Of a DNA stretch of 64,000 nucleotides, positions 1 to 60,114 are shown one piece after another (positions within the stretch are counted from its first letter, which is position 1; each line of letters starts with the position of its first letter). The position numbers and the translations under genes were made by a program. Source of the stretch: Cloacibacillus sp. An23. Its GTDB lineage: Bacteria > Synergistota > Synergistia > Synergistales > Synergistaceae. The stretch is taken from assembly GCF_002159945.1 (NCBI RefSeq), contig NZ_NFJQ01000008.1, positions 1 to 64,000 of the forward strand. The letters run 5' to 3'. Below the pieces are notes generated by a model that saw only the letters and a list, made by a program, of their open reading frames with translations, did no database searches and had not been told where the DNA came from.

Positions 1-414
1 AAAACCAACCAGTTCAACCTAACGGCGCGGAGATACACCGAAAGCGACATCCGCAGGATGAAAGAAGACGGCAGCCACAAAATCTGGATAGGCGAACTGG
101 AAGACAAATTCGGCAGCTATGGCAAGGTCATACTAGCGATAGTAAGGCTGGAACCGAAGGAACAGCGAGCGGTGATAGACACCTTCCTCATGAGCTGCAG
201 GGTCATGGGACGGAATGTGGAGACGGAGTTTCTTAAACATATAGAGCATGACCTTAAAGAAGAAGGCATTAAAGAAATCATAGGCGAGTATGTGGAAACG
301 GCTAAGAATAATGTCGTCAAAGATTTCTATTTACAGCGAATTGGATGGGAGACGACAAACGAGATTTCTGGCTCAATAGTGTCGTATACAAAAAAGATCA
401 AAACTCTAGTATAG
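1..414 (+). CDS. FkbH-like HAD protein, C-terminal fragment (truncated by window start)
   Basis: Open from base 1 in frame 1 with no start codon, so the gene begins outside the window. The first codons read KTNQFNLT followed by R-rich residues, a signature I associate with FkbH-type proteins, where a HAD domain is followed by a GNAT-like domain. The end contains a GNAT-like stretch (YGKVILAIVRL) and a helix ending in HIEHDLKE. FkbH proteins load a glyceryl unit from 1,3-bisphosphoglycerate onto an acyl carrier protein, or act as phosphatase-like tailoring enzymes in surface-glycan loci. The HAD catalytic half is not visible, so activity cannot be judged. The next gene follows within 30 bases. 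Family assignment is moderately firm; the specific role is inferred. Confidence 0.72.
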   Translation, partial: KTNQFNLTARRYTESDIRRMKEDGSHKIWIGELEDKFGSYGKVILAIVRLEPKEQRAVIDTFLMSCRVMGRNVETEFLKHIEHDLKEEGIKEIIGEYVETAKNNVVKDFYLQRIGWETTNEISGSIVSYTKKIKTLV

Positions 415-443
415 ATATTGGCGAAGGGAAATATTTTTGTGCT

Positions 444-1577
444 ATGCCTACTAAACTTTTGATGGTATCGACTGTAGCATCAACATTAAGTGCTTTTTTA
501 TTGCCGCACGTAAAATGTATGCAGCAGCAAGGGTGGATTGTGGACGGAGCTGCAAACGGCATTATTGGCAATGATAAATGCATCAGCACTTTTAACTCCG
601 TTTACGATATAAAATGGAGCCGTAATCCGTTTGATGTTTTCCGCATGATTGAAGCAATGGATAGAATCCGAAGCATCGTGGAGGATGGTGGGTATGACGT
701 TGTCCATGTCCATACTCCAATTGCTTCCGCAGTGACACGTTTTGCACTTAGGCATATGGTCAAGGCTAAACAGATAAAAATGATGTATACGGCTCACGGC
801 TTCCACTTCTACAAAGGAGCGCCGCTGCTGAACTGGCTTGTGTACTATCCGATAGAAAAATATTTGTCACGTTATACAGATGTGTTGGTTACTATAAACA
901 AAGAGGACTACGCTCGTGCCCAAAGAAAATTTTGTACTCCTGTTGTCTATTACATCCCAGGAATTGGTGTCGATATAGAGAAATTTAAACGATGTAAAGT
1001 CTCTAAGCATGATAAAAGAGTAGAACTAGGCATCCCGGATAATGCTTTTGTACTATTGTCAGTAGGAGAACTAGCTAATAGGAAAAACCAACGTGTTGTT
1101 ATTAGGGCACTTGGTAAAATCAATGACCCAACAATTTTCTATGTGATTGCAGGTAAAGGTCCTCTTGAAAATGAATACATGAGATTGGCAATGCAAAATG
1201 GTATTGCAGACAATGTCATGCTCTTAGGCCATAGGTTAGATATTGACGAGATATGTAAAGTTGCTGATGTTTTTGTACATCCAAGCGTAAGAGAAGGACT
1301 TGGCATTGCCCCTTTGGAGAGTATGGCTGTAGGACTTCCGCTAATATCGTCGTATGTCAATGGTATAAAGGACTATACACAAGATGGTGTTACAGGATGC
1401 TGTATAAGCAATCCGCTAGATGTTGAAGCAATGGTGGCAGCGATACTAACCATGCGGGATAATATCGAATTTCGGAAGCGATGTGCTTTGAATAATATAG
1501 AGATTGCAAAAAGCTTTGATATGAAGTTCTCATTAAAAGCTATGAGTAATATATATTGCAGGCAAGTAGCAAAATAG
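444..1577 (+). CDS. Glycosyltransferase family 4 (GT-B fold)
   Basis: A 377-residue glycosyltransferase that would transfer a sugar from a nucleotide-sugar to a growing lipid-linked glycan on the cytoplasmic side of the inner membrane. The N-terminal half has the acceptor-side pattern (VVHVHTPIAS, then TAHGFHFYKG). The C-terminal half has the donor-binding GT4 pattern, including the EX7E motif at about residues 284-292 (EGLGIAPLE). I start at ATG 444 (MPTKLLMVSTVAS). An in-frame ATG at 345 would add 33 residues unlike the family and would overlap the previous gene by 70 bases. Codon use is AT-rich, as in the following polysaccharide genes. Donor and acceptor cannot be deduced. Confident as GT4. 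Confidence 0.9.
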   Translation: MPTKLLMVSTVASTLSAFLLPHVKCMQQQGWIVDGAANGIIGNDKCISTFNSVYDIKWSRNPFDVFRMIEAMDRIRSIVEDGGYDVVHVHTPIASAVTRFALRHMVKAKQIKMMYTAHGFHFYKGAPLLNWLVYYPIEKYLSRYTDVLVTINKEDYARAQRKFCTPVVYYIPGIGVDIEKFKRCKVSKHDKRVELGIPDNAFVLLSVGELANRKNQRVVIRALGKINDPTIFYVIAGKGPLENEYMRLAMQNGIADNVMLLGHRLDIDEICKVADVFVHPSVREGLGIAPLESMAVGLPLISSYVNGIKDYTQDGVTGCCISNPLDVEAMVAAILTMRDNIEFRKRCALNNIEIAKSFDMKFSLKAMSNIYCRQVAK

Positions 1578-1651
1578 CGAATCTTATTTTATATAGGTTT
1601 ATCTATGAAGTGGTTAATCGATTTCGTAAAATGGTTGGAGGAAAAATTATT

Positions 1652-2386
1652 ATGATAACGCCGAAGCAAATCGCAGATATAACTATGACCCCGAAAAAAA
1701 GAAAAGACTCTAAAAATAATTATTTTGCGTTCTATATAGGCAGACCATTATCGTATATATTGACCATACCGTTTTTGTATACAAATATTGCGCCTAATAC
1801 TGTATCTGTACTTTCTGTAATTCCTAGTGTGGTTGGTTTTTTACTTATGGGATTAGGTGAAAATGTAGATACATTGCTACTAGGGTGGGTATGTTTTTTC
1901 TTGTGGAATCTATTGGACGGCGTAGATGGGAATATTGCACGGTATAAAAAACTATCTTCTCCAATCGGCAGTGTATATGATGCGATGGGAGGATATGCTG
2001 CAACAGTGCTTTCATTTTTTGCTTGGGGATGGGCTGCATCGCATAAAAATGGAATTATTGCTGATATTATTTTTATTCCACCGGAATTCTATATCGTAAT
2101 TGGCGCTTTGTCTGGAATTTTTACTTTGTTCCCTAGACTGATAATGCATCGTGCAATTACATCATTAAAAAATGAAAAAGCACTATCGGGGTTAATGGAC
2201 AAATCTGAGTATGGTATAGTTAAAACGATTGCGCTAAACATTACGTCAACATCAGGTTTTCTTCAGGTCTTTATGTTGGTTTCTATAATTTTCAACGCTA
2301 TGGATCTATTTACATTGAGTTATTGTGCAATCAATTTTTTGATTATGGCTGTTGCATTAAAAAATATACTGACTATGAAAGTTTGA
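1652..2386 (+). CDS. CDP-alcohol phosphotransferase-family membrane protein, atypical motif
   Basis: A 244-residue multi-pass membrane protein of the CDP-alcohol phosphotransferase superfamily, which moves a phospho-alcohol from a CDP-alcohol to an acceptor hydroxyl and releases CMP. The signature D-x2-DG-x2-AR-x8-G-x3-D-x3-D can be read at residues 89-114: D89, D92, G93, A96, R97, G106 and D110 are present, but position 114, normally the fourth aspartate, is glycine. The start at ATG 1652 is set by GGAGGA nine bases upstream; an earlier TTG at 1556 overlaps the glycosyltransferase. The next gene is an IspD/TarI-like cytidylyltransferase that could supply a CDP-polyol. Family is clear; activity is uncertain because of the motif change. 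Confidence 0.8.
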   Translation: MITPKQIADITMTPKKRKDSKNNYFAFYIGRPLSYILTIPFLYTNIAPNTVSVLSVIPSVVGFLLMGLGENVDTLLLGWVCFFLWNLLDGVDGNIARYKKLSSPIGSVYDAMGGYAATVLSFFAWGWAASHKNGIIADIIFIPPEFYIVIGALSGIFTLFPRLIMHRAITSLKNEKALSGLMDKSEYGIVKTIALNITSTSGFLQVFMLVSIIFNAMDLFTLSYCAINFLIMAVALKNILTMKV

Positions 2387-2399
2387 AAGGATATTCTCA

Positions 2400-3116
2400 A
2401 TGAATGTAGCTGTAATTATAGCGGGTGGATCCGGGCACCGTATGGGACAAGATATTCCCAAACAATTTATCAATGTTTATGATAAGCCAGTATTGATATA
2501 TACGCTGGAGGGATTTCAGCGTCATCCGTTAATTGACGTAATTGAAGTCGTTTGTCTTGACGGTTGGCACGGCGTATTATCAGCATATGCTAAACAATTT
2601 AATATTACAAAGCTTCAATGGATAGTCACTGGGGGAATAACAGGACAAGAGTCTATACGTAATGGGGTGTTTAATCTTGAGGACAAATGTGCCCCTGATG
2701 ACATCGTTATCATCCATGACGGCATTCGCCCTCTTGTCGATGATGCAGTTTTAACCGATGTGATTATGAAATGTCGTCAGTATGGAAACGCTGTTACTTC
2801 AATGCCATACAATGAGCAGATTTTTATAATTGACGATGAAGTATCCACAATTAAGTATATTCCGCGAGAAACACTTCGCCGCGTCTCAACCCCGCAGGCC
2901 TATAAATTTGGATTGCTTGACGCGAAATATCATGAAGCGTTTGAAAAACAGATTGGAATACACGGCTCATCATACACAAATACGATGATGGCCGATCTGG
3001 GCGAAAGGCTGTATTTCGCTTCCGGGTCTGATAAAAATATTAAACTTACAACAAAAGATGATTTAGAACTGTTCAAAGCATATCTGAAATCGGACAAAGA
3101 TAATTGGTTGAAGTAA
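2400..3116 (+). CDS. IspD/TarI-like cytidylyltransferase
   Basis: A 238-residue nucleotidyltransferase of the IspD family. It uses CTP to activate a sugar-alcohol phosphate, giving CDP-methylerythritol in IspD or CDP-ribitol in TarI/Bcs1. Visible motifs are the N-terminal AGGSGHRMG loop with PKQF, the HDGIRPLV motif near the middle and the C-terminal NIKLTTKDDL. Setting it between a CDP-alcohol phosphotransferase and an epimerase, in a polysaccharide locus, favours a surface-glycan CDP-polyol over isoprenoid synthesis; that is inference from context. The 13-base gap to the upstream stop and 16-base gap to the next start indicate one operon. Residues alone do not separate it from a true IspD. 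Confidence 0.85.
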   Translation: MNVAVIIAGGSGHRMGQDIPKQFINVYDKPVLIYTLEGFQRHPLIDVIEVVCLDGWHGVLSAYAKQFNITKLQWIVTGGITGQESIRNGVFNLEDKCAPDDIVIIHDGIRPLVDDAVLTDVIMKCRQYGNAVTSMPYNEQIFIIDDEVSTIKYIPRETLRRVSTPQAYKFGLLDAKYHEAFEKQIGIHGSSYTNTMMADLGERLYFASGSDKNIKLTTKDDLELFKAYLKSDKDNWLK

Positions 3117-3132
3117 AGAGGGATAGAGCGCA

Positions 3133-4182
3133 ATGAGCAACGAACTGTTTGAAGATGATATCAGATATGTGGCGGAGCTGGATTTACCATGGAATGAATT
3201 AACAGACAAAGCAGTCTTGATTACTGGCGCAAGCGGTTTGATAGGCAGTTTTCTTGTCAATGTGCTTATGTACAAAAATAGATTTGATAAATTAGATTGT
3301 AATATTTATGCAATCGGCAGAAATAAAGAAAGAGCTGATAAAACATTTTGTGAATATCAAGAGGACGAACGCTTCCAATTTATAGCCCACGATATCAATG
3401 TCCCTATGGGTGCTATAGATATAAAAGACGCTGATTACGTACTGCATTTAGCGAGTAATACGCACCCCATAGCTTATGCAGAAGATCCAATAGGTACAAT
3501 AACCGCTAACGTCATCGGCACGAATAATATGCTGGAATTTGCGGTGAATCATAACGCACGACGTTTGGTTTTTGCCTCTTCCAATGAAATCTACGGAGAA
3601 AATCGCGGAGACGCTGAATTCTTTGACGAGCGTTATTGCGGATATATAGACTGCAATACATTACGGGCCGGCTATCCCGAAAGTAAACGGTGTGGTGAGG
3701 CCTTATGTCAAGCATATATTAAACAAAAGGGACTTGACGCTGTAGTCGCAAGATTTACGCGTACATACGGCCCGACCATGCTAAGTTCTGATACAAAGGC
3801 AATAGCGCAATTCATAAAGAAAGCTGCTGCGCAAGAAAACATTGTATTAAAAAGCGATGGAAAACAGTTCTATTCCTATACATACGTAGCTGACGCGGTA
3901 TCAGGACTTCTTACCGTTATGCTGCGTGGGAAATGCGGTGAGGCATATAATATAGCCGATAAGAGAGGAGACATCAGGTTAAAAGACTTGGCGGAGATGA
4001 TAGCTGGCATTGCCGGTACGAATGTCGTCTTTGAACTGCCTGATGACAAAGAAAAGGCTGGCTATAGCACAGCGACGAAGGCTAGGTTGAACGGAGATAA
4101 GCTTAAAGCCCTTGGCTGGAATATGAGATATGACGTCTCTTCTGGCATGTGGAAGACTTTACGCTTTCTTATGATGAAATGA
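3133..4182 (+). CDS. NAD-dependent epimerase/dehydratase (extended SDR)
   Basis: A 349-residue extended short-chain dehydrogenase/reductase acting on nucleotide-sugars. The Rossmann GASGLIGS motif lies near residue 32, a catalytic-Ser region reads FASSNEIYGE, and the YxxxK pair is in YPESK. Length and layout resemble UDP-glucuronate decarboxylases and nucleotide-sugar epimerases. With the cytidylyltransferase upstream, the substrate could be a CDP-linked sugar, but the sequence does not show this. ATG 3133 follows an AGAGGGAT-type ribosome site at the end of the previous gene. Cytoplasmic. The enzyme class is firm; the substrate is unknown. Confidence 0.88.
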   Translation: MSNELFEDDIRYVAELDLPWNELTDKAVLITGASGLIGSFLVNVLMYKNRFDKLDCNIYAIGRNKERADKTFCEYQEDERFQFIAHDINVPMGAIDIKDADYVLHLASNTHPIAYAEDPIGTITANVIGTNNMLEFAVNHNARRLVFASSNEIYGENRGDAEFFDERYCGYIDCNTLRAGYPESKRCGEALCQAYIKQKGLDAVVARFTRTYGPTMLSSDTKAIAQFIKKAAAQENIVLKSDGKQFYSYTYVADAVSGLLTVMLRGKCGEAYNIADKRGDIRLKDLAEMIAGIAGTNVVFELPDDKEKAGYSTATKARLNGDKLKALGWNMRYDVSSGMWKTLRFLMMK

Positions 4183-4265
4183 CTTCAAGATATCGGCTTT
4201 ACCACATAAACATCAAGTAATAATAGGTAATGTTTTTTTGTGTGCGTTTTTATATTGGGAGAAAA

Positions 4266-6149
4266 ATGAGAGAAAACTTTTATCAAAAAATCTGGAATAA
4301 GATGGAAAAATTCCAATATGTCTCTTTTGATATATTTGACACCCTTATAAAGCGCAATGTTTCAACGCCAAGGGAAGTATTCAAACTTGTCGAAGAGAAA
4401 TATAACCTGCTAAATCCAACAAAGCCACGGATGGCTTTTTATAAGCAAAGAATTGAAGCTGAGCGGAAAGCCGTATATCTTAGCGACTGGGAAGAAGTTA
4501 CGTTTGACGCGATTTATGATCAAATGGAGATGAGCGAGGTAGAAAGAAAAACATTACAAGAACTGGAAATAGAAACTGAGTTACAGGTTTGTATACCTAA
4601 TTATCCCATACAGGAAATATATAAGCGATGCGTTGTCGGAGGCAAGACCATTGTTATCACTTCTGATATGTATTTGCCACAATGGGCAATCTGTAAAATA
4701 CTGACAAATTGTGGCTATGCTCATTATCATAGATTATATTTATCTTCAACAGTGGGCCTAAAAAAAATTACAGGGAATTTATTTAAATATGTTTTATCTG
4801 ACATGCAGATCGATAAAAGCGAGCTTGTACATATAGGAGATAGCAAAAGAGCTGATATTTTTGCATGCATGAAGAAAGGGATAAAGAGCATCTATCTTTC
4901 ACATACCGTAATCAATACAACGTTTATAAACCGTACAATGTTAGGTAACGCAAGCGAGCATTCTCCGTATATCTTCATAAATAATATGCTGTCCAAATAT
5001 CATAGTAGATCTAAGCTGTTTCTATGGGGATATGAAGCATTAGGGCCTTTATTGCTGGGGTTTTGCCACTGGATACACAGCAAAGTCCACGAACAAAATA
5101 TAGAACGGACGTTTTTTCTTGCTCGCGATATGTATCTTGTTGTACAAGTATACCAGCGACTGTACCCTGACGAGTCTGTCCAATATCTAGAAATTTCACG
5201 TAAAAGTTTGAGAAGAGCATATATATTGGAGAGCAATCAGATTCATTCTGTTTTTGACACTATGGGACGCAGAGAATATTCAATCGGCGCTGTATGTGAC
5301 GCCATAGGTTTGGAGACAGGGGGCGTTGTTGAGGGCTGTGCAGCGTTAGGCGTAAATATAGCAGCATCTGACGAATTTACCAATAAAAATACCATTGTTT
5401 ATGATGCGCTAAACTATGTAATTTTAGAGATGCTTAGGAAAGAAGGGGATTTATCCTTAGATTATCTGAAATCAATGGGGATGTCAGCAAACATAAAAAT
5501 GGCGATAGTCGACGTAGGTTGGCACGGCACGCTGCAAAATATGCTGGAAAAAATACTTAGAACGAAAGTGATGGGAATGTACTTTGGAAATACTAAAAGA
5601 GCATCATTTAGCAAGATGGATACTTGCGGTTATTGGTTTGACACAGACGACGAACGTCTTGTCCTTTCGCAGCTTTCTATGATGTACATTCTTGAAGTAA
5701 TGTTATTCCCTAAAATTGGAACGACATCTGGTTATGTATATGAAGAAAATCATATCATACCACTATACGCTAAATGTGAAATGGGCGATGGCTTTGAAAA
5801 GGTTGAAGAGTTCCAAATCGGGGCTATGCAGTTTATTGATGATTATATAAACAAGTCGCCTTACAAAAATCTGCCGTTCCTTAAAAACGATGCGGTTATG
5901 GCATATGAGAAATTAGCCTTTCAGCCTACGTTATACCAAGCTAAGATGTTATCTTCTTTGCCCTATGAAGATGGAGACATAAAGCCGTTAGCCTTGGAAA
6001 AAAATATATTTTATTATTTATTAAGGCCTCGCTCGCTGTTGAATGACTATAAGCAAGCAAGGTGGAAGCCCGGGTTTATTAAACAAGTGTTTCCATTCAT
6101 TAAAAATCCGCATCAGTTGGATCTGCTTGTAAAAAATAGAAAGAATTAA
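4266..6149 (+). CDS. HAD-superfamily protein with long C-terminal domain (COG5610-like)
   Basis: A 627-residue protein with an N-terminal HAD phosphatase-like domain. Motif I is DIFDT at residues 22-26, motif II is the Ser in VITSDMYLP, and motif III is GDSKRAD. The C-terminal two thirds (from about residue 260) is a second domain that I do not recognise by function. I associate this architecture with predicted HAD hydrolases (COG5610) in capsule and O-antigen loci. No membrane segments stand out. The start at ATG 4266 is preceded by GGGAGA; an in-frame ATG at 4230 is less likely. Hydrolysis of a phosphorylated glycan precursor is a plausible but unproven role. Confidence 0.72.
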   Translation: MRENFYQKIWNKMEKFQYVSFDIFDTLIKRNVSTPREVFKLVEEKYNLLNPTKPRMAFYKQRIEAERKAVYLSDWEEVTFDAIYDQMEMSEVERKTLQELEIETELQVCIPNYPIQEIYKRCVVGGKTIVITSDMYLPQWAICKILTNCGYAHYHRLYLSSTVGLKKITGNLFKYVLSDMQIDKSELVHIGDSKRADIFACMKKGIKSIYLSHTVINTTFINRTMLGNASEHSPYIFINNMLSKYHSRSKLFLWGYEALGPLLLGFCHWIHSKVHEQNIERTFFLARDMYLVVQVYQRLYPDESVQYLEISRKSLRRAYILESNQIHSVFDTMGRREYSIGAVCDAIGLETGGVVEGCAALGVNIAASDEFTNKNTIVYDALNYVILEMLRKEGDLSLDYLKSMGMSANIKMAIVDVGWHGTLQNMLEKILRTKVMGMYFGNTKRASFSKMDTCGYWFDTDDERLVLSQLSMMYILEVMLFPKIGTTSGYVYEENHIIPLYAKCEMGDGFEKVEEFQIGAMQFIDDYINKSPYKNLPFLKNDAVMAYEKLAFQPTLYQAKMLSSLPYEDGDIKPLALEKNIFYYLLRPRSLLNDYKQARWKPGFIKQVFPFIKNPHQLDLLVKNRKN

Positions 6150-6185
6150 AAATATACCCAAAGCAATTGCCGTTATAATGTAAAA

Positions 6186-7553
6186 ATGTATATTTTATTT
6201 ATTGTCTCTTTGTGTTTTATTTTTTATATATCATATATAGTTTTTGAAAAGGATATGTTCGCTCCGCCAGTGATGATGGTTCTTGTCTTTATGGCTTGTG
6301 CTTGCGTGCCCATGACAAGATACGAAGACTGGCGGCTTGCCGAGTATGGCGCCCAGTCGGTTTTGCTGTTGATCCTAGGAATAATATCTTTTTTATCAGG
6401 TAGCCTGCTTGCATATTGTATCTCACATTACAGATATAATAGTATCTTGTTAACACGAGCATCGGATATAAGAAAAAGAATTATTATAACATCTTGGGGA
6501 TTTGCGCTTATGTTTGGTCTTGGCCTAGTTGAGATATTTATGCTGGCAGATTACATAAGAGCTACGGTCGTCAGTATGAATTTCCCCCATTCGTCACTTG
6601 GATCAATGTTATTCTCATACAGAGTGATTGACGTTAATAATCTTATCCCGAAAGAATTCGCTATGCCGAGCTATTTACGTTTATTACGTTATAGCGTAGA
6701 AGTGTTTTCTGCTTTTGCAGTATACGTTTTGCTACATAATTTTATTTTACAGTGCTATAAAAAATCTGATATGTGGCTTGTTCTAATAATATTACTTTGG
6801 CCTGTAAATTCGCTGCTTGTATCGGCGCGTGGGCATATTCTGAACTTATTGGCTGAGATTGTATATCTCATTTTTTTCTTCTATGGTGTCAAATATGGCT
6901 TTAATTTTCGTATTGCGATTCATGTTATAAGCAAGGGAGTAAAATTACTATTCGTTTTTTTTATTCTTTTCTTTGTATTTGCTATATTTCAAGGTAGAAT
7001 TCATAGTGGCAACACGTTATTTAACAGTGCTACTGTCTACGCAGGTGGCGGGATTCGCGCTTTCGATCTTTTTGTGAAAGCACCGAAAGACAAAAATACC
7101 GGGATGCTCGGAAACGATGAGACACTGATGGGCATCGGCTCTTTTTTGAACATGCACCTTGGAATTGGGAAAAAACCACTGGGGCCTCTTGAATTTAGAA
7201 ATATCGCAGGCAAGAATCTCGGTAATATTTACACCGCATTTAGAAGGTATTATAGTGATTTTGGAACGTTTGGTATTGTGTTTTTCTCTGCAATATTGGG
7301 GTTTATTATGAATTATATGTATATGAAAAGTAAGAATGCGTGCATTAAGGGAAAAACTGTGTTTGAAGTCTTGCTCTTTTCATGGATGTCGAGGTTTATC
7401 TTTTATATGCCGATTGAGGAATATTTTTATGGCAGTACCATTACACTAAGCGGTATATATAAAATTGTCTTATTGTATATATTATATCGAATATTTTCTG
7501 AAAAGAAGATTTTTATAAATGGCAGGGGTTGCATATGCAGCAGACATCATTAA
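6186..7553 (+). CDS. Wzy-like O-antigen/oligosaccharide repeat-unit polymerase
   Basis: A 455-residue, very hydrophobic protein with roughly ten or more predicted membrane helices and a long loop in the second half (about residues 265-365, containing HSGNTLF and FLNMHLGIG). This is the usual architecture of Wzy polymerases, which join undecaprenyl-linked repeat units at the periplasmic face. It lies directly before a Wzx-like flippase, the classical partner, and overlaps its start. Wzy proteins diverge strongly, so the call rests on topology and position rather than on a motif. An O-antigen ligase-like function cannot be excluded. Confidence 0.72.
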   Translation: MYILFIVSLCFIFYISYIVFEKDMFAPPVMMVLVFMACACVPMTRYEDWRLAEYGAQSVLLLILGIISFLSGSLLAYCISHYRYNSILLTRASDIRKRIIITSWGFALMFGLGLVEIFMLADYIRATVVSMNFPHSSLGSMLFSYRVIDVNNLIPKEFAMPSYLRLLRYSVEVFSAFAVYVLLHNFILQCYKKSDMWLVLIILLWPVNSLLVSARGHILNLLAEIVYLIFFFYGVKYGFNFRIAIHVISKGVKLLFVFFILFFVFAIFQGRIHSGNTLFNSATVYAGGGIRAFDLFVKAPKDKNTGMLGNDETLMGIGSFLNMHLGIGKKPLGPLEFRNIAGKNLGNIYTAFRRYYSDFGTFGIVFFSAILGFIMNYMYMKSKNACIKGKTVFEVLLFSWMSRFIFYMPIEEYFYGSTITLSGIYKIVLLYILYRIFSEKKIFINGRGCICSRHH

Positions 7554-8980
7554 GAAAAAATGCAATCCTTAATATCGTCTATCGTTTATCTAGCATAGTT
7601 TTTCCATTGATTACATATCCCTATGTTTCACGTGTATTGACAACCGAGAACATGGGACGCATATCATTTTTTAGTTCTTTATCTAATTATATGCTATTGA
7701 TAGGTTCACTTGGCATATATACTTATGGTGTCCGTATTGTTGCACAAGCAAGAGATAGTCGACGTGATCTCTCAATCATTGTAAAGGAACTATTGATTCT
7801 CAACTCTGCAGTAACAGGTGTTACTCTTGCAGTTTTAATTTTTTTTGTAGTTTTTACGGAAAAATTTCAAAATAACATGTCTTTATTTGTCATAAGTTGT
7901 TTGCAGATTGCAATGGCACCTTTAGGCATCGAATGGCTATACGGAGGTCTTGAACAGTATGGATATATAGCGCGACGTGCTATTTCTCTAAAAATTGCTT
8001 CATTAATTTTAATTTTTATATTTGTTAAGGATAAAAACGATTATGTTATTTATGCTACAATCACGTGTATCGGGTATATTGCTAATTATCTATGTAATTT
8101 CATTCATTCAATGAAATTTATAGACTGGAACGTGAACACAAAGTGGCAATTTAAGCGTCATATAAACTCTGTCTTGGTACTTTTTGCATCAATGCTGGCA
8201 ATCAATGTTTATACCAACGTGAATATTATTATGCTTGGAATTATATGCGGAAATCGTGCAGTGGGGCTATATGATATAGCAAGTAAAGGACAATTGGTTT
8301 TGCTTTCCCTGATAAACTCAGTTAGCTCCGTATTATTTCCGCGCCTTTCATATTATTTGATGACTAATGATATTAAGTCATATAATGCTGTACTTAACGA
8401 ATCTGTATCTGTAATATTGAGCATCGCTATACCGATAGCAGCATTCTTTTCTTTAGAAGCAAGAAACATTATTTTAGTCTTGGGTGGAGAAGAATATCTT
8501 CCGGCAGCGAATTGTATGCGAATATTAGCGCCTATTTTGATAATCTCAGGATTTTCCAATATAACCGGCAACCAAATATTATTGCCGCATGGACATGATG
8601 GAGCATTTATGAAAGCTGTATCGGCAGGTGCATTGGTAGCAATTATGTTAAACTTGTTTTTTATGCCTAGATATTGTTTTCTTGGAGCGGCAATGGTTAC
8701 TTTATTTGCAGAGTTTGTTCAGATGTCTATACAATTTATCTATTCAAGAAAATATCTTAGGAACAACGTTGATTTAAGCGAAATAATAAAAATAATATAC
8801 TCAACATTTTTGTCCATCATACCTATATTTATTATGATGTTTTATTTTATCTATCATCCAATTATCAATTTAATAATACATTTTTGTATTTTTACAATAT
8901 TGTATATTTTATTTGCCTTCCGCTTTAAGATGATTATTATAAAAGAATTATATGCTCGTTTTTCGCATATGGTCAATTAA
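7535..8980 (+). CDS. Wzx-like polysaccharide flippase
   Basis: A 481-residue membrane protein of the MVF/MATE-like polysaccharide exporter family. It has about 12-14 hydrophobic segments and the typical N-terminus (SIVFPLITYPYVSRVL). It would flip undecaprenyl-PP-linked repeat units from the cytoplasm to the periplasm for the neighbouring polymerase. I choose ATG 7535, preceded by AGGGG at suitable spacing, over the TTG at 7529. The start lies inside the polymerase gene, suggesting translational coupling. It is the last intact gene of the polysaccharide block. Confidence 0.88.
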   Translation: MQQTSLRKNAILNIVYRLSSIVFPLITYPYVSRVLTTENMGRISFFSSLSNYMLLIGSLGIYTYGVRIVAQARDSRRDLSIIVKELLILNSAVTGVTLAVLIFFVVFTEKFQNNMSLFVISCLQIAMAPLGIEWLYGGLEQYGYIARRAISLKIASLILIFIFVKDKNDYVIYATITCIGYIANYLCNFIHSMKFIDWNVNTKWQFKRHINSVLVLFASMLAINVYTNVNIIMLGIICGNRAVGLYDIASKGQLVLLSLINSVSSVLFPRLSYYLMTNDIKSYNAVLNESVSVILSIAIPIAAFFSLEARNIILVLGGEEYLPAANCMRILAPILIISGFSNITGNQILLPHGHDGAFMKAVSAGALVAIMLNLFFMPRYCFLGAAMVTLFAEFVQMSIQFIYSRKYLRNNVDLSEIIKIIYSTFLSIIPIFIMMFYFIYHPIINLIIHFCIFTILYILFAFRFKMIIIKELYARFSHMVN

Positions 8981-9755
8981 CTTGAAAGGCAAAATACAAT
9001 GGGATCACATATCGAAGCCTTGCAATAATGCCTTATCAAGGAGGATCCTATAATGAACGACAAACTCATCGCCAAATGGCTGTGTCCGGCTCGTGTCAAC
9101 ACCCGTTCGCAAAAACATTTTCCTCCAGTACGATGCCCTGCATTTATACGGCTACTTGCTCCAGTATAGATTGATTGTATAGAACTGGGGCTGAAGTCGC
9201 CGTTTCTGTTTGCTGTCCACTCCTCCGAGTACTCTATCAGATGCATTGTGACTAGTCTCGTGTACGATCCCTCGGGTAATATCACTACGACGCTGCGCCT
9301 CCGGCGTATCTCCATGTTCAGCCGCCAAGCATGTTCGTAGACGATGTTTTTTCGTCTCTATAAGCGGAAAGGTGTAGTCGGAAGTGAATCTTCAAGCTCG
9401 TTTTCTAGGCAACTTATCGTTGGGGATATCTCTTCTTATATTTTACAACGAATCTGTCCGTCATTTTTCTTGCTTCCTATACGTCTGGCGCCAACCATAT
9501 TTTTTTGAGTTCCGCTTTACATAGAGCTTGGGCGAGTATCCATTGTACTGGAACACAGGTGATCCGTCTAATTCTGATTCTCTTCTATGCAAGCAAGGTC
9601 AGCAAATTGCTTTTGCGAACGGTATTGTGTTCTATCCGTTCTGCCCCTATGTCGCAACTGAAACTTTCTTCTTTGATTTACTCTCTCTTTACGCAGAAAA
9701 CGACATTTCCTATACTGTATTTGGCGTTTTGAATATAGTGCCGGGGAGAGCTGCC
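8981..9755. other. 775-base stretch without an intact gene; possible decayed coding DNA
   Basis: No long gene with sensible codon use is seen. A strong ribosome site (AAGGAGG, 9038-9044) precedes ATG 9053, but the frame closes after 38 codons. Protein-like segments appear in changing frames (near 9110-9160 and 9195-9330, and a hydrophobic segment near 9420-9730), interrupted by stops. This fits one or more frameshifted, decayed genes at the end of the polysaccharide block. I could not recognise a transposase or terminal inverted repeats. Low confidence. Confidence 0.35.
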
Positions 9756-10167: not shown

Positions 10168-12126
10168 ATGAGCGGCATTATAGATTCGTTAAACCCCAGA
10201 CAGCGCGAGGCTGTGACATACTGCGACGGGCCGCAGGTCGTGCTTGCGGGGGCGGGGAGCGGCAAGACGAAGGTGCTCACGACGAAGATAGCCTATCTTG
10301 TGAAGGAGGTGGGCGTGAGGCCGTGGCGCATTCTCGCGCTGACTTTTACGAACAAGGCGGCGCGCGAGATGAAGAGCCGCGCCGAGGCGATGTTTGACGG
10401 CGAGCTCGGCGGGCTTGAGATTTCTACGTTTCATTCCTATGGGCTGCGTTTTCTGCACCGTTATCACGATGCGCTTGAGAAGCTCGGCTATCCGTACCCG
10501 TTCGTGATTTTCGACCGAGGCGACGCGAAGTCGGTCGTCAAGCGCGCGATGAACGACCTGAACATCGACCCGAAGAAGCTGAGTATAGCCGAGGCGCTCG
10601 ACATGATATCGAAGGCCAAGACGAAGGCGAACCCAGTGTCGCGCGAGCCCAGTATTTCCGACCGCTGGCGCTCTCTTTACGACGCATACCAGAACGCGCT
10701 GAAAACGCAGGGGGCGCTTGATTTCGACGACCTGATGGTGCTGCCGCTGCATATCCTCGCGACCGACAAGGATGTGCTCGCGCACGAGCGCGAGCGGCTC
10801 GACTGGGTGCTCGTTGACGAGTATCAGGACGTGAATATGCCGCAGTATCTCCTGCTGCGCTGCCTCGTGGACGGCGGGCGCAAGATTATGGTCGTCGGCG
10901 ACCCGGACCAGTCCATTTACGGCTGGCGCGGCGCGGAGATGTCGATGATTTTGAATTTCGAGCGCGACTTCAAGGGCTCGAAACTGACGATACTCGATCA
11001 GAACTACCGTTCGACTGGAAACATTCTCGACGGGGCGAACGGCGTCATACGCAACAACGACGACCGTCACCCAAAGGATCTGTGGACGGCGTCGGAGCGC
11101 GGGTGCAAAATTCAGGTGAAGCGCTTATCAGATAATGAAGACGAAAATGAATGGATTGCGACATGTATAGAGAAATTGCACGATGAAGGTTATCGTTATG
11201 GAGAAATGGCAATACTTTATCGTATAAATGCTATGAGTGCTGTTATGGAAAACTCCCTTCTGCGGCACTCAATCCCTCATAAAATTATACGCGGAGTAGC
11301 TTTTTATGAACGTCCTGAGGTAAAAGATGCTATTTCAATGTTACGTCTTGCAGTTAATCCGCTTGATGGAATTTCACTTGCGCGTGTTGCCAAAATACCA
11401 GCACGAGGTCTTGGTGAATCGAGTATAGCAAAACTCCAAGATGCAATGTCGAAAATGATTCATGAAAGCGCTGAAGAACTTTGGCGTGAAGTTGAGAGGA
11501 CTGGTGCACGCCTTAAGAGTAAACCAGCGTTAGGTGCGAAGTCTCTGGCTTCAGATATGCTTGCTATTTTAGCAAATAAGAACAACACTGGTGATGCGAT
11601 ACGTGCAATATTGTACACAAATGGATATGAAAATTATTTGCATGATAAATATCATGATGACTGGGAAGAGCGTATCGAAAATGTCATGGAAATACTCTCT
11701 TTGATTACGCCTGAAAGTAATATTGTAGACGCATTGACAGAACTACCGTTGATGACAGACCAAGACTCTTCGGAAATGATTCAAGACTCTGTGAGTATGT
11801 TGACTCTGCATGCAGCTAAAGGACTTGAATATCCGGTTGTATTTATGGCTGGTATGGAAGAAGGAATTTTTCCAACTGCACGTGCTGTTGAAGGCGTTGG
11901 CGATATATCTGAAGAACGCCGCCTTTGTTATGTAGGCATGACACGAGCGAGGGAACGTTTATATATGAGTTGTGCAGCATCCCGTATGCTCTTTGGAGGC
12001 TGGCAGCATAATAGTATGTCTCGATTCTTAGGTGAAATTCCACAAGAGGTTAAAGAATTTACAGATGAAGCATGGGAGAAAAATAATGCCGACAATCGGT
12101 CTGACAGGCGACGTTGGCGCTGGTAA
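10168..12126 (+). CDS. UvrD/Rep/PcrA-type ATP-dependent DNA helicase
   Basis: A 652-residue superfamily 1A helicase that unwinds DNA 3' to 5' in repair or replication restart. All core motifs can be read: Q motif (LNPRQREAV), Walker A GAGSGKT at residues 28-34, motif Ia (LTFTNKAA), Walker B DEYQD from residue 217, motif III (GDPDQSIYGWRGA), motif IV (LDQNYRS), motif V (TLHAAKGLEYP) and motif VI (YVGMTRARERLY). It is closer in length to Rep than to full-length PcrA, with little after motif VI. Codon use changes sharply at about base 11120 (near residue 318), from GC-rich to AT-rich, and returns to GC-rich at coaE. The last 13 codons overlap coaE. The protein appears functional. Confidence 0.93.
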   Translation: MSGIIDSLNPRQREAVTYCDGPQVVLAGAGSGKTKVLTTKIAYLVKEVGVRPWRILALTFTNKAAREMKSRAEAMFDGELGGLEISTFHSYGLRFLHRYHDALEKLGYPYPFVIFDRGDAKSVVKRAMNDLNIDPKKLSIAEALDMISKAKTKANPVSREPSISDRWRSLYDAYQNALKTQGALDFDDLMVLPLHILATDKDVLAHERERLDWVLVDEYQDVNMPQYLLLRCLVDGGRKIMVVGDPDQSIYGWRGAEMSMILNFERDFKGSKLTILDQNYRSTGNILDGANGVIRNNDDRHPKDLWTASERGCKIQVKRLSDNEDENEWIATCIEKLHDEGYRYGEMAILYRINAMSAVMENSLLRHSIPHKIIRGVAFYERPEVKDAISMLRLAVNPLDGISLARVAKIPARGLGESSIAKLQDAMSKMIHESAEELWREVERTGARLKSKPALGAKSLASDMLAILANKNNTGDAIRAILYTNGYENYLHDKYHDDWEERIENVMEILSLITPESNIVDALTELPLMTDQDSSEMIQDSVSMLTLHAAKGLEYPVVFMAGMEEGIFPTARAVEGVGDISEERRLCYVGMTRARERLYMSCAASRMLFGGWQHNSMSRFLGEIPQEVKEFTDEAWEKNNADNRSDRRRWRW

Positions 12127-12667
12127 GAGTACGCTCTGCTCGGTCTGGCGCGAAATGGGCGCGAACGTCATAGACGCGGACACTGTCGCGCGCTCAATGT
12201 GGGACGTGCCCGAGGTGCGCGTCGAGGCCGAGAAGCGCTGGGGCGCTGGATTTTTCGACGAGCCGGACCACAGGACGCTCTGGGCTAAAATAGCTGCTAA
12301 AATATTCAACGACGCCGGAGAATATAAATTCGCCTCAGCGCTGATACATAAACGCACAGGCGAAGAACTGAAAAAACTGGCGCGCGAATCGAAAGGCTGG
12401 ACGATAGTCGAAATCCCTCTGCTCTACGAGGGCGGCCACGATGAGTGGCTCGATTACGTCGTCTACGCCGCCGCGCCCTTCGACAAGCGCGTCGCGCGCA
12501 ACGCGAAGCGCAACTGGGACGCCGGGGAGGTCGCGCGCCGCGAGGCGAAGCTGACGCCAAGCTATGAAAAGATGGCGAAGGCCGATTTCGTGCTCGTCAA
12601 CGACGGCACGGAGGAAGAATGGAAGCAAAAGGCGCGCGAACTCGGCGAAAAGCTGAAAAAGCTATAA
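12086..12667 (+). CDS. coaE: Dephospho-CoA kinase
   Basis: A 193-residue P-loop kinase for the last step of CoA synthesis: ATP-dependent phosphorylation of dephospho-CoA at the ribose 3'-OH. The N-terminal P-loop is GDVGAGKST, followed by VIDADTVAR, typical of CoaE. EIPLLYE and the lid region (RNWDAGEVARREAKL) are also present. ATG 12086 is preceded by GGGAGA and lies inside the 3' end of the helicase gene (41-base overlap in another frame), so the two are probably translated together. Backbone-like codon use resumes here. Length is normal for the family. Confidence 0.92.
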   Translation: MPTIGLTGDVGAGKSTLCSVWREMGANVIDADTVARSMWDVPEVRVEAEKRWGAGFFDEPDHRTLWAKIAAKIFNDAGEYKFASALIHKRTGEELKKLARESKGWTIVEIPLLYEGGHDEWLDYVVYAAAPFDKRVARNAKRNWDAGEVARREAKLTPSYEKMAKADFVLVNDGTEEEWKQKARELGEKLKKL

Positions 12668-27342: not shown

Positions 27343-27414
27343 ATGATGCAGAACCAACGGGAAAATATGTCTAACTATTGACGGTAAAAACCTACACCAA
27401 AGGAGTCAGACAGC

Positions 27415-28116
27415 ATGAAAGCGAATCCGAAGTATTTGTCATTTTATTATCAGGATATTGACGAATTGCCTGCGATAAAAATTGAGCCTGCTAAAACGGC
27501 TTTGCTTATAGTCGATATGCAAAAGCATTTTTTATCTAAAGACGGATATGATGCGGAGCTTTTTAAAAAAATGGGTGAATGGGATCGCTGGAAACATTAT
27601 TTTGATTATGTTGAGAATGTTACGATTCCTAATAATAAACGGCTCATTGAATGTTGCCGCAAAAACAGCATTGAAGTTACATACGGTAGGATAGCGTCTC
27701 TAAAAGCTAACGGAGCAGACAGGGCAAGAGTGCAGAGTACTATTGGGTGGAATAATATTTTAGTTCCGATTGATTCTGAGGGAGCCGCTATGATGGATGA
27801 ATTAGCTCCTGAAAAAGATGATATCGTAGTCAATAAAACAACTGACAGCGTCAGCCTTGGAACAAATTATTCTGAACTTATGCGAAATATGGGAATTGAC
27901 ACGATTATTGTTACTGGGGTCGTCACAGATCAGTGTGTGGCCGGAACCGTGAGAGTGCTTGCCGACCATAATTTTAAGGTAATTTGCGTTGAAGATTGCT
28001 GCGCCGCTCCAGATATGGAATTACACCACATGGAATTGAAGATTATGAACATCATTTATTGTAATGTGCTGTCTACTGACGAAACAATCGCTTTAATCGA
28101 AGGAAGAGCTAAATAA
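27415..28116 (+). CDS. Isochorismatase-family cysteine hydrolase
   Basis: A 233-residue hydrolase. The catalytic triad of the family is visible: Asp in LIVDMQKHF, Lys in VVNKTTDS, and Cys in TDQCVAGTVR. Relatives hydrolyse amides such as nicotinamide, N-carbamoylsarcosine, ureidoacrylate or biuret. The substrate here is not evident. Codon use is AT-rich, unlike the upstream gene, and the gene is followed after 31 bases by an amino-acid permease of the same composition. ATG 27415 follows AAAGGAG. Probably a transferred pair handling a nitrogenous substrate. Confidence 0.87.
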   Translation: MKANPKYLSFYYQDIDELPAIKIEPAKTALLIVDMQKHFLSKDGYDAELFKKMGEWDRWKHYFDYVENVTIPNNKRLIECCRKNSIEVTYGRIASLKANGADRARVQSTIGWNNILVPIDSEGAAMMDELAPEKDDIVVNKTTDSVSLGTNYSELMRNMGIDTIIVTGVVTDQCVAGTVRVLADHNFKVICVEDCCAAPDMELHHMELKIMNIIYCNVLSTDETIALIEGRAK

Positions 28117-28147
28117 TCTTAAACTGCACTAAGGGAGGGCATGGCCT

Positions 28148-29497
28148 ATGTCAAGCGCATTAAAAAAAGAGTTGACTCTCTCTCAAATTATAGCAATGGC
28201 CGCGGGCGGAATGATAGCTGCGTGGATGGTTGAAATACGGTATTGGTTTGAACTTACTGGGCCAAGCTCTTTGCTATGCCTTCTTGCCTGCGGTATTATA
28301 TTGTTGCCGTTGTGCTTGATATATACAGAAATGACGGCCATGCTCCCTTATGCTGGCGGTGAAAATATATGGGCTAGCAATGCATTTAATTGGGATTTTG
28401 GGTGGCTGGTCGGGTGGTGCATGTTTTTGCTCTACTTGTCCGCAATGCCGAACGTAACAATCGGCATCTCCACAATGGTATCTTATCTATACCCGTTGAA
28501 CTTTATAGAATTAAAAATCCTCGCCTGTGTGATATTATCCGTATGGTTTGTAATGGTCAATCTAGAAATAAAACATTTAGCAAAGGTTCAGGACATTATG
28601 TTCTGGGGGACTCTGGTTGTCTCACTTGTTACTTCTATGATTTTTGTATTTAGCGACGAGTGGAGATGGAGCAACATATCGCCTTGGTTTCCCAAAGGTG
28701 CGGCCGGATTCAGCGCTGGTCTAGGACTTTTAATGTTTAAGTTTATTGGCTTCGATTTGATTGCAGTATTAGTCGAAGAATCCAATTTTTCTAAGAAGAA
28801 AATAATCATAGGCTTTATCGGCAGTATATTATGCACGTTCCTTGTCTATGGACTTGCTATACTTGGAGTAGCCGGGATAGTTTCGCAGGAATGGATTGCA
28901 CAGACAGATATTGTTGACCCACGTGTAGCTGACATATTGGGCATGCATTGGCTGGCGTTGGTAATAGTCATTATGGGGGCAATTACGTGCATAACAACTC
29001 TGTCTGGGTTCTGGCTTGCTGCATCTAGGACTATGTTTGGAGCAGCTTTACAGAGACAGGTGCCCAAGAAGTTAGCTCTTCTTAATCGCTATGGACAGCC
29101 ATGGGTGGCCAATACATTGGTCTATATTTGTTCGTTATATTTCTGCATCATGGCACCTGAAGCGTGGATAAACTATATATTTACAATAACAGTCGGCGCT
29201 GCCGGTATAATATACCTATTTGTTTCACTGTCATTCCTTAAACTGCGCAGGATGAAGCCACATTGGGAACGCCCGTATCGTTGCCCTTACGGGTTATTTA
29301 TGGGACTAGAATCTATTTTGTTCTGTATATACTGTTTGTACCAGTGTGTTAAGGCTATGGATGCTGCAACATGGATAGCGCTTGGTGTGTATTTTGTAAT
29401 TGGCGGTATGTTGTATGCATATGCAAAGTATAAACAAAGTACGTCTCCAGAAGAATGGAAACCTTTGATCCAGTCTCCTGACAACGTTACACTGTAA
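28148..29497 (+). CDS. APC-superfamily amino acid permease
   Basis: A 449-residue membrane protein with about 12 helices. The first helix carries the broken-helix glycine pattern (IIAMAAGGMIAAW) typical of APC transporters, and the segment YTEMTAMLPYAGGENIW matches the family's conserved TM2 region. It would import an amino acid or amine across the inner membrane, by symport or exchange. With the isochorismatase-like hydrolase it forms an AT-rich two-gene unit. The substrate cannot be read from the sequence. Confidence 0.87.
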   Translation: MSSALKKELTLSQIIAMAAGGMIAAWMVEIRYWFELTGPSSLLCLLACGIILLPLCLIYTEMTAMLPYAGGENIWASNAFNWDFGWLVGWCMFLLYLSAMPNVTIGISTMVSYLYPLNFIELKILACVILSVWFVMVNLEIKHLAKVQDIMFWGTLVVSLVTSMIFVFSDEWRWSNISPWFPKGAAGFSAGLGLLMFKFIGFDLIAVLVEESNFSKKKIIIGFIGSILCTFLVYGLAILGVAGIVSQEWIAQTDIVDPRVADILGMHWLALVIVIMGAITCITTLSGFWLAASRTMFGAALQRQVPKKLALLNRYGQPWVANTLVYICSLYFCIMAPEAWINYIFTITVGAAGIIYLFVSLSFLKLRRMKPHWERPYRCPYGLFMGLESILFCIYCLYQCVKAMDAATWIALGVYFVIGGMLYAYAKYKQSTSPEEWKPLIQSPDNVTL

Positions 29498-29533
29498 TGG
29501 CTGTTGCATTTTTTGCATAAGCTGGCTGTTTCT

Positions 29534-50259: not shown

Positions 50260-51120
50260 TTAAGAACGTATGCGTTGCCTAAAATATCTTTTTAAGAATT
50301 CAAAAAATACCATGACTTCTTGTTTCTTAATACCATCGTCAGGCCAACTTATGAATATATTTCTTCTACAAATCGGATTAGTGATATTTAATAAATTAGC
50401 TTTATCTGATTGTATTTTCCCCCAAGTGATTTCTGGCCACAACGTTATGCCTAACCCGGCGCTTACCAGCTCTCTGATTGTATATGGGCTATCGCTCTCA
50501 AAAGCAATATTTGGAGAGTATCCACAAAGATTAAAAAAATGCATCGTGATGTCTCGCAATATGTGATTTTTTAGCATTACAAAGCTTTCATATCGCAAAT
50601 CTGCAAGATCGACGGCATTAGTTAATGCTAATGGTGATGACGCTGGGACTGCCAGCTTCAAATCCTCACTCATTACTAACGCGCTGTTGTTTAACATAAC
50701 ATTAGGTAATGTTGAGGATATACATAAATCATATTTTGCATTTTTATTCTGCAATAGTTGGAAATTTATCAATGGATACTCTTTCTTAAACTTAAGCAAA
50801 ATATCTGGAAGTAAAGAAGTCGCAGCAAGAACATTGAAAATAATCGTGGATTGACGTTTACCAGCTGCAATGCTCAATTCATTCGGTAAATTATTGAGCG
50901 TTGCAAGAACGCTCTTTAGACGTTCTTGCAACGCCTTTCCTGCGTTGTTTAGCTTTATGCGTTTGCCGTTGCGATCAAATAACTGCACTCCTAATTCTTG
51001 TTCCAATTGTATTATGGCTTTACTGACAGAAGGTTGAGAAACTAGCAGTTCGTCAGCTGCTTTGGAAAAATTTTCATATTTAGCGACTGTTAAAAAGTAG
51101 CGCAGTTGGAATAATTCCAT
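50260..51120 (-). CDS. LysR-family transcriptional regulator
   Basis: A 286-residue LysR-type regulator. The N-terminal helix-turn-helix (MELFQLRYFLTVAKYENFSKAADEL, then SQPSVSKAI) is complete, followed by a periplasmic-binding-protein-like effector domain. The start (complement of ATG at 51118-51120) is preceded by GAGGAGAACC; an upstream in-frame start at 51150 is less likely. It is divergent from the malonate decarboxylase operon and is the obvious candidate for its activator, with malonate or a relative as effector. The effector is inference. Confidence 0.9.
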   Translation of the reverse strand: MELFQLRYFLTVAKYENFSKAADELLVSQPSVSKAIIQLEQELGVQLFDRNGKRIKLNNAGKALQERLKSVLATLNNLPNELSIAAGKRQSTIIFNVLAATSLLPDILLKFKKEYPLINFQLLQNKNAKYDLCISSTLPNVMLNNSALVMSEDLKLAVPASSPLALTNAVDLADLRYESFVMLKNHILRDITMHFFNLCGYSPNIAFESDSPYTIRELVSAGLGITLWPEITWGKIQSDKANLLNITNPICRRNIFISWPDDGIKKQEVMVFFEFLKRYFRQRIRS

Positions 51121-51181
51121 CGGTATAGGTTCTCCTCTAATAACTTTCATCTATAAAACATATTCTTATTATATATTGGAC

Positions 51182-51218
51182 AATATTAACAAACAAGGAT
51201 AAATTTATTGTTAACATT
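51182..51218. promoter_or_regulatory. Candidate LysR operator between regulator and malonate operon
   Basis: AATATTAACAA (51182-51192) and TTGTTAACATT (51208-51218) form an inverted repeat with one mismatch, and a TTAACAA/TTGTTAA core is perfect. It is in the 172-base divergent region. A second dyad, CCTAATTAGG, lies near 51225-51234. Confidence 0.45.
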
Positions 51219-51292
51219 ATGGCGCCTAATTAGGTAAGAGATATCTACAATCTGCAGGTTGATTGATCTAAACTTAAAAGGAGGAAATTATA

Positions 51293-52480
51293 ATGAATTT
51301 AAAAGGTATGAGTTTCTTTGATAATCATACGCATCTTATCGATCCTACTTTGACATCTCTGACTAAAAAAAGTTTCATAATGCGCTTTATCCATGGCTAC
51401 CAGGATATGGAACCTTGGGATAAGGGCGTTGAGTCGGATTATACCTATGGACATGCCTCTGATTGGCAGGTAAGCAACATAGAAAATCTAGGTGTAGTGA
51501 AGCTGATTAGTCATTATCTTGCCGAGCGTTTTGATTGCGAAGAAACACCAGACGCTGTGATAGCCGCAAGGAATACATATATAGACGGCAGCGTTGAAAA
51601 ACTGAAAGAATACACAAAGAGTCTTTATAACGAAGAAGGCATTATCGGTACAGTCCTTGACAGCCACGATCCGTGGGGCGATATAAAAGACAAAGCTTTT
51701 CCGTGCCCTGTATACCGCCTATACAATTTTGAAGATGATTATTTTGAACTGCTTCCTACAGCAAGTTCTTTCAAAGCTCTGATGGAAAATGTCGAACAGA
51801 GGATTCGTAAGGCTATTTCTGATGGTTTCACGGCGCTAAAAGGGCACGTGGCAGAGAATTACACAATGGAAGTACGTGTGATTTCTGACAGTGAAGCTGA
51901 GAAGAAATTTGCTGCGGCACAAAAAGGCGAGGATAAAACGGCAGTGGAGGACGTTTTCTTTGCGATGTACAGACATGTCCTTCTGATTGCATCAGAGCTA
52001 AATGTCACAGTGCATATCCATGCCGGAACGACTGGTTTTAACCGTCCAAGCGCAGCATATGTGCCGCATCTTGATCCATTTCTTTTTGTTCCCTTTTATA
52101 CATCCGATCTCGCTTTGACTAAGACTAAAATTGTATTCCTGCACCAGGGATTCCCATATACACGTCATGCTGGGATGATGGCGTATTCGTTCCCGAATAT
52201 TTTTGTCGATACCAGCTGGGTTCTGCCATGGAACTCATATGCGTTCCGCACTAATATAGAGGATCTGCTCGGCGTGTGTCCGCATAAGAAAATCCTGTTT
52301 GGTACAGGACAGCATGGATTCCCCGAAATTGCATGGACAGCTGCAAAGGTGTCAAAAGCCTGGCTCGGCGAAATACTTGACGACTACATACGGCTTGGGC
52401 TTATGTCCGCAAACCAGGCTGAAAAAACGGCAAGGCAGCTTCTCTTTGAAAACGGTAAAGAGTTGTACCATATTCAATAA
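51293..52480 (+). CDS. Amidohydrolase-superfamily protein (Amidohydro_2-like)
   Basis: A 395-residue TIM-barrel metal hydrolase. The N-terminal metal motif is DNHTHLID (HxH), with HIHAG, FLHQGFPYTRH and the final acidic-containing strand FGTGQHGFPEIA. It resembles the amidohydrolase half of FluG and lactonase/decarboxylase-type Amidohydro_2 proteins. The substrate is unknown; lying first in a malonate operon, it could release malonate from an amide or ester, but that is speculation. ATG 51293 follows AAGGAGG. A terminator-like hairpin separates it from the transporter. Confidence 0.82.
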   Translation: MNLKGMSFFDNHTHLIDPTLTSLTKKSFIMRFIHGYQDMEPWDKGVESDYTYGHASDWQVSNIENLGVVKLISHYLAERFDCEETPDAVIAARNTYIDGSVEKLKEYTKSLYNEEGIIGTVLDSHDPWGDIKDKAFPCPVYRLYNFEDDYFELLPTASSFKALMENVEQRIRKAISDGFTALKGHVAENYTMEVRVISDSEAEKKFAAAQKGEDKTAVEDVFFAMYRHVLLIASELNVTVHIHAGTTGFNRPSAAYVPHLDPFLFVPFYTSDLALTKTKIVFLHQGFPYTRHAGMMAYSFPNIFVDTSWVLPWNSYAFRTNIEDLLGVCPHKKILFGTGQHGFPEIAWTAAKVSKAWLGEILDDYIRLGLMSANQAEKTARQLLFENGKELYHIQ

Positions 52481-52489
52481 GCATCATAT

Positions 52490-52531
52490 CTGAGGGCTGT
52501 ATTTTTCAGCCCTCAGCCTTTTCTCTTTTTT
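52490..52531 (+). terminator. Terminator-like hairpin between amidohydrolase and transporter genes
   Basis: CTGAGGGCTG (52490-52499) pairs perfectly with CAGCCCTCAG (52507-52516), followed by a T-rich tract to 52531. It could end a short transcript or act as a partial terminator that lowers downstream expression. Confidence 0.78.
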
Positions 52532-52566
52532 CCCCATTAAAATTTTGATATAAGGAGGGCTATTAG

Positions 52567-53958: not shown

Positions 53959-54057
53959 TATGTAGCGTGTGGGGTCGGCGCGCGGCTTTTACTCATATCA
54001 TAAATGAGTTTAGCTGCGTGCCGCCGTTTACGGTGTCTTTATAGAGAGGAACAAAAT

Positions 54058-54192
54058 ATGAATATTATTCTGTATGCCACTTTTGCGTACGCCTTAACAG
54101 CGATTATATCAGTTGTAATGATTTCGGTTGTTGTGTTGTTAATAAAAATATTAATGAAGTTTCAATCTGCTGAGCAGACAGAAGGTGAGTAA
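54058..54192 (+). CDS. 44-residue single-pass membrane protein, possible Na+ pump gamma-like subunit
   Basis: A short protein with one membrane helix (about residues 5-32, ALTAIISVVMISVVVLLIKIL) and a charged tail (QSAEQTEGE). ATG 54058 has GAGAGGAAC upstream and its stop lies two bases before madB. Na+-pumping decarboxylases have a small membrane gamma subunit (OadG/MmdD) that anchors the soluble complex to the beta pump; this gene has the right place and topology, but it is much shorter and no family motif is visible. Confidence 0.6.
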   Translation: MNIILYATFAYALTAIISVVMISVVVLLIKILMKFQSAEQTEGE

Positions 54193-54194
54193 AG

Positions 54195-56197: not shown

Positions 56198-56217
56198 GTT
56201 GAAAGGGTGTGTCAGTT

Positions 56218-57897: not shown

Positions 57898-57915
57898 TTT
57901 AGGAGGATATTATTT

Positions 57916-58242
57916 ATGGCGCTGCAGACTTTGTATTACGAATTTAAAGTGGCTGACCCGAAAAGCATTCCTGCAGAGTGGGGCCATTATGGTGTAACTG
58001 GCTCCGGTGACCTTGAAGTATTGTTTGAACGACAGAATTTAAATGGAAGTGTTAAAGTAAAAGTAGTTACACCAGTAAAAGGATTTGAAAAAGTGTGGGA
58101 AAAGGTTTTGGAAAGATTTGTGAAAGAATTTAGCCTTGGAGATTTGTCTATAGAAATTAACGACGATAACGCTACGCCTGTAGTTGTTTATATGCGTTTA
58201 AGACAAGGGCTGGTAGAGACAGGCTTCCTCAAAGGAGAGTAA
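57916..58242 (+). CDS. madE: Malonate decarboxylase acyl carrier protein
   Basis: A 108-residue ACP of the MadE/MdcC family, unrelated in sequence to fatty-acid ACPs. The prosthetic group 2'-(5''-phosphoribosyl)-3'-dephospho-CoA is attached to the serine of GVTGSGDLEV (Ser30). ATG 57916 follows TAGGAGGA. Its neighbour madA loads it and madC-madD decarboxylate it. Confidence 0.9.
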   Translation: MALQTLYYEFKVADPKSIPAEWGHYGVTGSGDLEVLFERQNLNGSVKVKVVTPVKGFEKVWEKVLERFVKEFSLGDLSIEINDDNATPVVVYMRLRQGLVETGFLKGE

Positions 58243-58247
58243 TTTAT

Positions 58248-59195: not shown

Positions 59196-59210
59196 TTGGG
59201 AGGAAAAGCA

Positions 59211-60101: not shown

Positions 60102-60114
60102 ATTTGTTTAAGTA

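Follow-up and report, generated by a model that had tools for sequence, protein, structure and literature searches.

A uvrD/pcrA-type helicase gene of Cloacibacillus sp. An23 with a sharply bounded AT-rich 3' half, probably acquired by in-frame recombination

In this study we describe a DNA-repair helicase gene of Cloacibacillus sp. An23, a gut-type member of the Synergistaceae, that changes abruptly, about half way along its frame, in base composition and in divergence from its nearest relative. It is very probable that a tract of about 1 kb was replaced in frame through recombination, the partner being an AT-rich relative not yet sampled, and this accounts best for what we found. The window, by which we mean the whole stretch of DNA analysed, comprises 64,000 nt (GCF_002159945.1, NZ_NFJQ01000008.1, positions 1-64,000, forward strand) and opens a contig of 192 kb; the genome amounts to 2.9 Mb in 31 contigs. 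The relatives used for comparison were Synergistaceae, with G001 as the sole congener among the genomes compared.

Results

The gene (10168-12126, plus strand) encodes a PcrA/UvrD-type SF1A DNA helicase of 652 amino acids in a single intact frame, with an N-terminal UvrD-helicase domain (Pfam, 1.6e-77) and a C-terminal UvrD_C domain (8.9e-64). It shares both domains with the PcrA, UvrD and Rep helicases and is similar over its full length to its closest solved structure, PcrA (1pjr). In contrast to these enzymes it scores below every NCBIfam equivalog cut-off (637.3 bits against 911.2 for the top model, TIGR01073 pcrA), and several family-invariant residues are replaced in its C-terminal half (C half). 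Downstream lies the GC-rich, host-type coaE gene for dephospho-CoA kinase (12086-12667, plus strand; Pfam CoaE, 2.3e-28), with 87% amino acid identity to G001. The order uvrD-coaE is common to G001, G015, G020, G021, G026, G004 and G002.

The earlier note had described GC-rich codons up to about 11120, AT-rich codons after it and a return to GC-rich DNA at coaE, and segmentation of the third codon positions bears this out. GC3 is 0.80 in codons 1-319 and 0.29 from codon 320 (11125), where the change point lies; a three-segment fit places the return to GC-rich DNA at 12088, approximately at the coaE start. The gain in log-likelihood at the change point is about 87 (86.8-87.2), while the maximum over 300 codon shuffles was 8.2. 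The two halves of the An23 helicase differ by 0.52 in GC3, compared with at most 0.12 in the 59 relative rows (the row at 0.12 being a partial one, and L033 a duplicate of L004); the highest gain across these rows, GC-rich or AT-rich alike, was 6.2. In a scan of 659 ORFs of at least 120 aa on 807,669 bases (the window and 40 further stretches) the helicase showed the strongest GC3 switch, with 86.8 against 40.4 for the runner-up. Judged by eye, the switches at 40.4 and 37.6 look like mis-called N-termini and the one at 33.0 belongs to an apparent intein of a phage Mu F-like (minor head) protein (L173:6679-8436; G000 contig C2, ~206.7-208.4 kb). Codon 256 of this protein marks a fall of GC3 from 0.84 to 0.53 and the beginning of an intein-like insert, which starts with a cysteine, ends in a VAHNC motif and is followed by the resumed phage protein. 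The insert has weak NCBIfam matches to models of intein-bearing proteins, and its motifs, read by eye, are presumably those of an intein.

The remaining low-GC stretches of the window switch composition at gene borders. Positions 1-9000 (GC 0.31-0.43) contain a polysaccharide flippase-like gene (7529-8980, Pfam Polysacc_synt) and are likely a surface-glycan island adjoining uvrD. At 27400-29500 a low-GC insert of two genes, isochorismatase-like and amino acid permease, lies in GC-rich backbone, and at 50260-61905 a low-GC block with genes for a LysR regulator, the sodium-pump oxaloacetate decarboxylase beta subunit and a carboxyltransferase is probably an acquired decarboxylase cluster.

The divergence from G001 changes at nearly the same places as the composition. 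Nucleotide identity is 0.852 before the tract, 0.645 inside and 0.858 after it, with edges at 11104-11129 (5') and 12086-12108 (3'), given as ranges of two log-likelihood units. On this basis, together with the GC3 segmentation and a test of codon sharing, we delimit a host-type 5' part (10168-11115, plus strand, about codons 1-315; 90% amino acid identity to G001), which covers domain 1 and the start of domain 2A, and an AT-rich tract with a GC3 of about 0.28 that has probably been replaced (11115-12097, plus strand). By the domain borders of UvrD, the join falls within domain 2A. Synonymous saturation is confined to the tract (pS 0.94); the 5' half and coaE have dS values to G001 of 0.68 and 0.55, respectively. 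The tract's pN is 0.183 despite the saturated pS, and therefore purifying selection acted on its lineage. The share of common residues that are also encoded by identical codons differed between the N-terminal half (N half) and the C half (p<1e-3) in 10 of the 16 pairs that include the An23 gene, all of them drops, and in none of the 120 pairs without it. Sharing with the AT-rich row L021 instead rose, from 0.30 to 0.46 (p 2.2e-3), in line with what an AT-rich codon usage of the C half would produce. A maximum chi-square test against G001 placed the break at codon 326, and none of 2000 permutations gave a value as large (17 of the 60 rows were used for this and for the codon-sharing test). Sharp change of divergence and composition within a gene, by which mosaic genes are recognised, is therefore found here in both respects.

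Trees of the two halves did not show a clean topological conflict. In trees of 19 rows both halves grouped with G001 (support 98/98 for N and 99/99 for C), and trees of 43 of the 60 rows, from which distant and partial rows were dropped, likewise gave G001 as nearest. What differs is the length of the An23 terminal branch, which grows about eightfold from the N tree (0.036) to the C tree (0.31), while that of G001 is 0.081 and 0.099. In AU tests, for which the groups were picked after a first tree, keeping the An23 gene out of the clade of the next five rows was rejected for both halves (p 0.0071 for N and 0.0185 for C); keeping it out of eight rows was rejected for C (0.0135) and not for N (0.203). 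When the very long AT-rich row L028 was added, neither L004 nor L028 was securely placed as partner of the An23 gene: in the C tree L028 stood beside it without support (89/71) in a trio with L004 (98/97), and in the N tree the branch joining the An23 gene and L004 fell to 77/0. A shared nearest relative had been named in advance as evidence against replacement, and taken to the letter this is the outcome. Topological conflict is usual for mosaic genes and is not required where the donor is unsampled. Since both half-trees share their nearest relative, the donor would be a sister-type lineage that shows up as a longer branch and not as a conflicting topology.

No sequence nearer to the tract than the congener was found in 52 genomes of the family, nor in 185 Synergistota genomes, whether searched by protein (G001, 72% aa) or by DNA (G001, 67% nt over the best stretch). 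Matches in plasmids and phages were all below 60% identity (best about 39% among the matches listed), and IMG/VR gave no match. An identified donor would confirm a mosaic gene and is not required for one. The family member G002 (row L028) was considered as donor kin and rejected, its C half being only 50% identical and equally far from the An23 gene and G001 (both 0.497), with a very long branch that makes its placement unsafe. G002 has a reduced, AT-rich genome of 1.5 Mb that scores as complete, with a uvrD GC3 of about 0.32 and a uvrD branch of 0.9-2.1; lineages that are fast and AT-rich, as the donor is supposed to be, therefore exist in Synergistaceae.

The earlier note had also stated that the helicase motifs continue in frame across the join, and this agrees with our alignment: the frame is uninterrupted, and motifs V and VI look intact by eye. 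The C half alters five of 74 family-invariant columns (L356M, R358A, E366R, Y371H and N543S) and the N half none of 106, and none of the 12 relatives listed alters more than two in a half. The invariant columns were taken from 21 family rows after the near-duplicates L006, L011, L017 and L020 and the partial L029 had been dropped. Judged from its sequence, the chimeric helicase is likely active; with five invariant columns broken, full activity is not assured.

The 3' edge of the tract falls in an overlap of 41 nt between uvrD and coaE (12086-12126, plus strand), which ORF coordinates, the alignment to G001 and the tails of 14 relatives delimit. The overlap encodes in two frames the CoaE P-loop and a UvrD tail of the RRWRW type, and its DNA is nearly fixed over much of the family, including some low-GC members. 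The last 17 nt of uvrD sense codons (12107-12123, plus strand) are identical in nine of 23 family rows, among them the AT-rich L015 and L021, and have one mismatch in ten. With relatives standing in for the donor, the 3' edge did not stand out when six AT-rich rows were used (16th to 20th percentile), because several of these rows lack the patch. When the test was repeated with L015 and L021 alone, a choice made post hoc after the others had been seen to lack it, the patch ranked first for conservation among all windows of the gene, at 17, 24 and 30 nt alike (eight GC-rich by two AT-rich rows; mean identity 0.985). The 5' edge, at the 33rd to 83rd percentile of conservation depending on window size, does not lie in a conserved patch. 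It is plausible from these alignments that the 17-nt patch is a candidate homology anchor for the 3' crossover.

Discussion

The earlier note had proposed that a low-GC relative supplied its homologous piece in place of the 3' half, and this is the best reading of these data as regards the two sharp edges against G001 and the collapse of codon sharing in pairs with the An23 gene only; the expected difference in nearest relatives did not appear, and no donor was found in the 185 genomes of the phylum. We infer that a resident GC-rich uvrD/pcrA gene was exchanged, from about codon 315 to the coaE start, in register for its homologous counterpart from a Synergistaceae lineage that is AT-rich and evolves faster, and that would lie outside the genomes compared and branch beside the genus of An23. 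Incoming DNA would have paired with the chromosome, and the 3' exchange may have taken place in or adjoining the short overlap of uvrD and coaE, where reading in two frames keeps the DNA constant. For the 5' exchange we propose a less homologous joint, in less conserved DNA within domain 2A. Domain 1 of the product, with the P-loop and DEYQD, would then be of host origin, and most of domain 2, with motifs V and VI, domain 2B and the tail, would come from the donor. As both halves share G001 as nearest relative and the G001 branch is no longer than expected in the C tree, the donor would have split from G001 at about the time An23 did. It would then quickly have become AT-rich and fast-evolving, which counts against replacement. 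The failure to find a donor in the genomes searched, the five broken invariant columns and the position of the 5' edge outside any conserved patch weigh on the same side.

Two other explanations deserve consideration, both of them improbable. The first is an assembly or binning chimera, with the contig taking in reads of an AT-rich relative sampled alongside. The locus is indeed known from a draft assembly of 31 contigs. However, the tract sits 11 kb inside the 192 kb contig with host sequence in conserved gene order on both flanks, two exact joins that keep register and frame would be needed, and no second, host-type C half was found in this genome, whose assembly is 99% complete and 1.3% contaminated; the C half is present in a single copy. 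We regard the second, in-place divergence of the 3' half through a local AT-biased mutation burst or relaxed selection and without a donor, as having an equally small chance. The grouping of the C half with G001, whose own branch is of normal length, and the five changed invariant residues would be in keeping with it. Against it stand the sharpness of both edges, the synonymous saturation over 1 kb directly beside DNA with a dS of 0.55-0.68, and the intact frame and motifs. The changes, moreover, fall on both strands (C>T 23/34, G>A 16/29) and include transversions, similar to those of the AT-rich G023 (L015), and therefore do not form the pattern of a one-strand deaminase, which we reject. 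We know of no process of local in-place divergence of such a kind.

An ordinary codon-usage or domain-linked composition difference of the helicase family can be put aside: protein-level conservation is somewhat lower in the C half in nearly all pairs, but the 59 relative rows, whatever their GC, lack such a switch. A reading of the tract as an inserted element (for example an intein) or as a fused second gene deserves just as little credence: the apparent intein shows that another GC switch in An23 resembles one, but the uvrD tract is colinear with its homologues across all 652 residues and has no added length.

Replacement by recombination has counterparts elsewhere. In E. coli and Shigella, within-gene breakpoints were reported in 678 of 5282 gene sets (12.8%; PMC3212841). 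The likeness to within-gene lateral transfer as treated there, that is intragenic homologous recombination, lies in a breakpoint in a core gene and a replacement in frame; that study, however, stays within one species group, whereas the An23 tract differs from the congener by about 35% and has a very different GC content. Homology-facilitated illegitimate recombination (PMC6382021) might fit the two edges with its conserved anchor and poorly matched joint. In contrast to it, both joints in An23 keep register and length. An illegitimate joint need not keep either. Within-gene transfer is well known, and the An23 uvrD gene adds a new example to it that is unusually sharp and distant; we found no earlier report of such a gene or event in Synergistaceae in the open-access papers searched.

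In conclusion, the gene represents a probable natural domain swap of unusual clarity within a core helicase of DNA repair; its edges are placed to within about 25 nt, and its divergence is far beyond that at which homologous exchange is usually efficient. As a tentative idea, which we consider rather unlikely as a whole, the dual-coded overlap, frozen across GC-rich and AT-rich Synergistaceae, might have served as a composition-proof anchor that enabled half a helicase to be donated across a nucleotide divergence of about one third, giving a working chimera between lineages. If this were true, recombination between lineages far apart in GC content would have predictable points of entry in short dual-coded patches.
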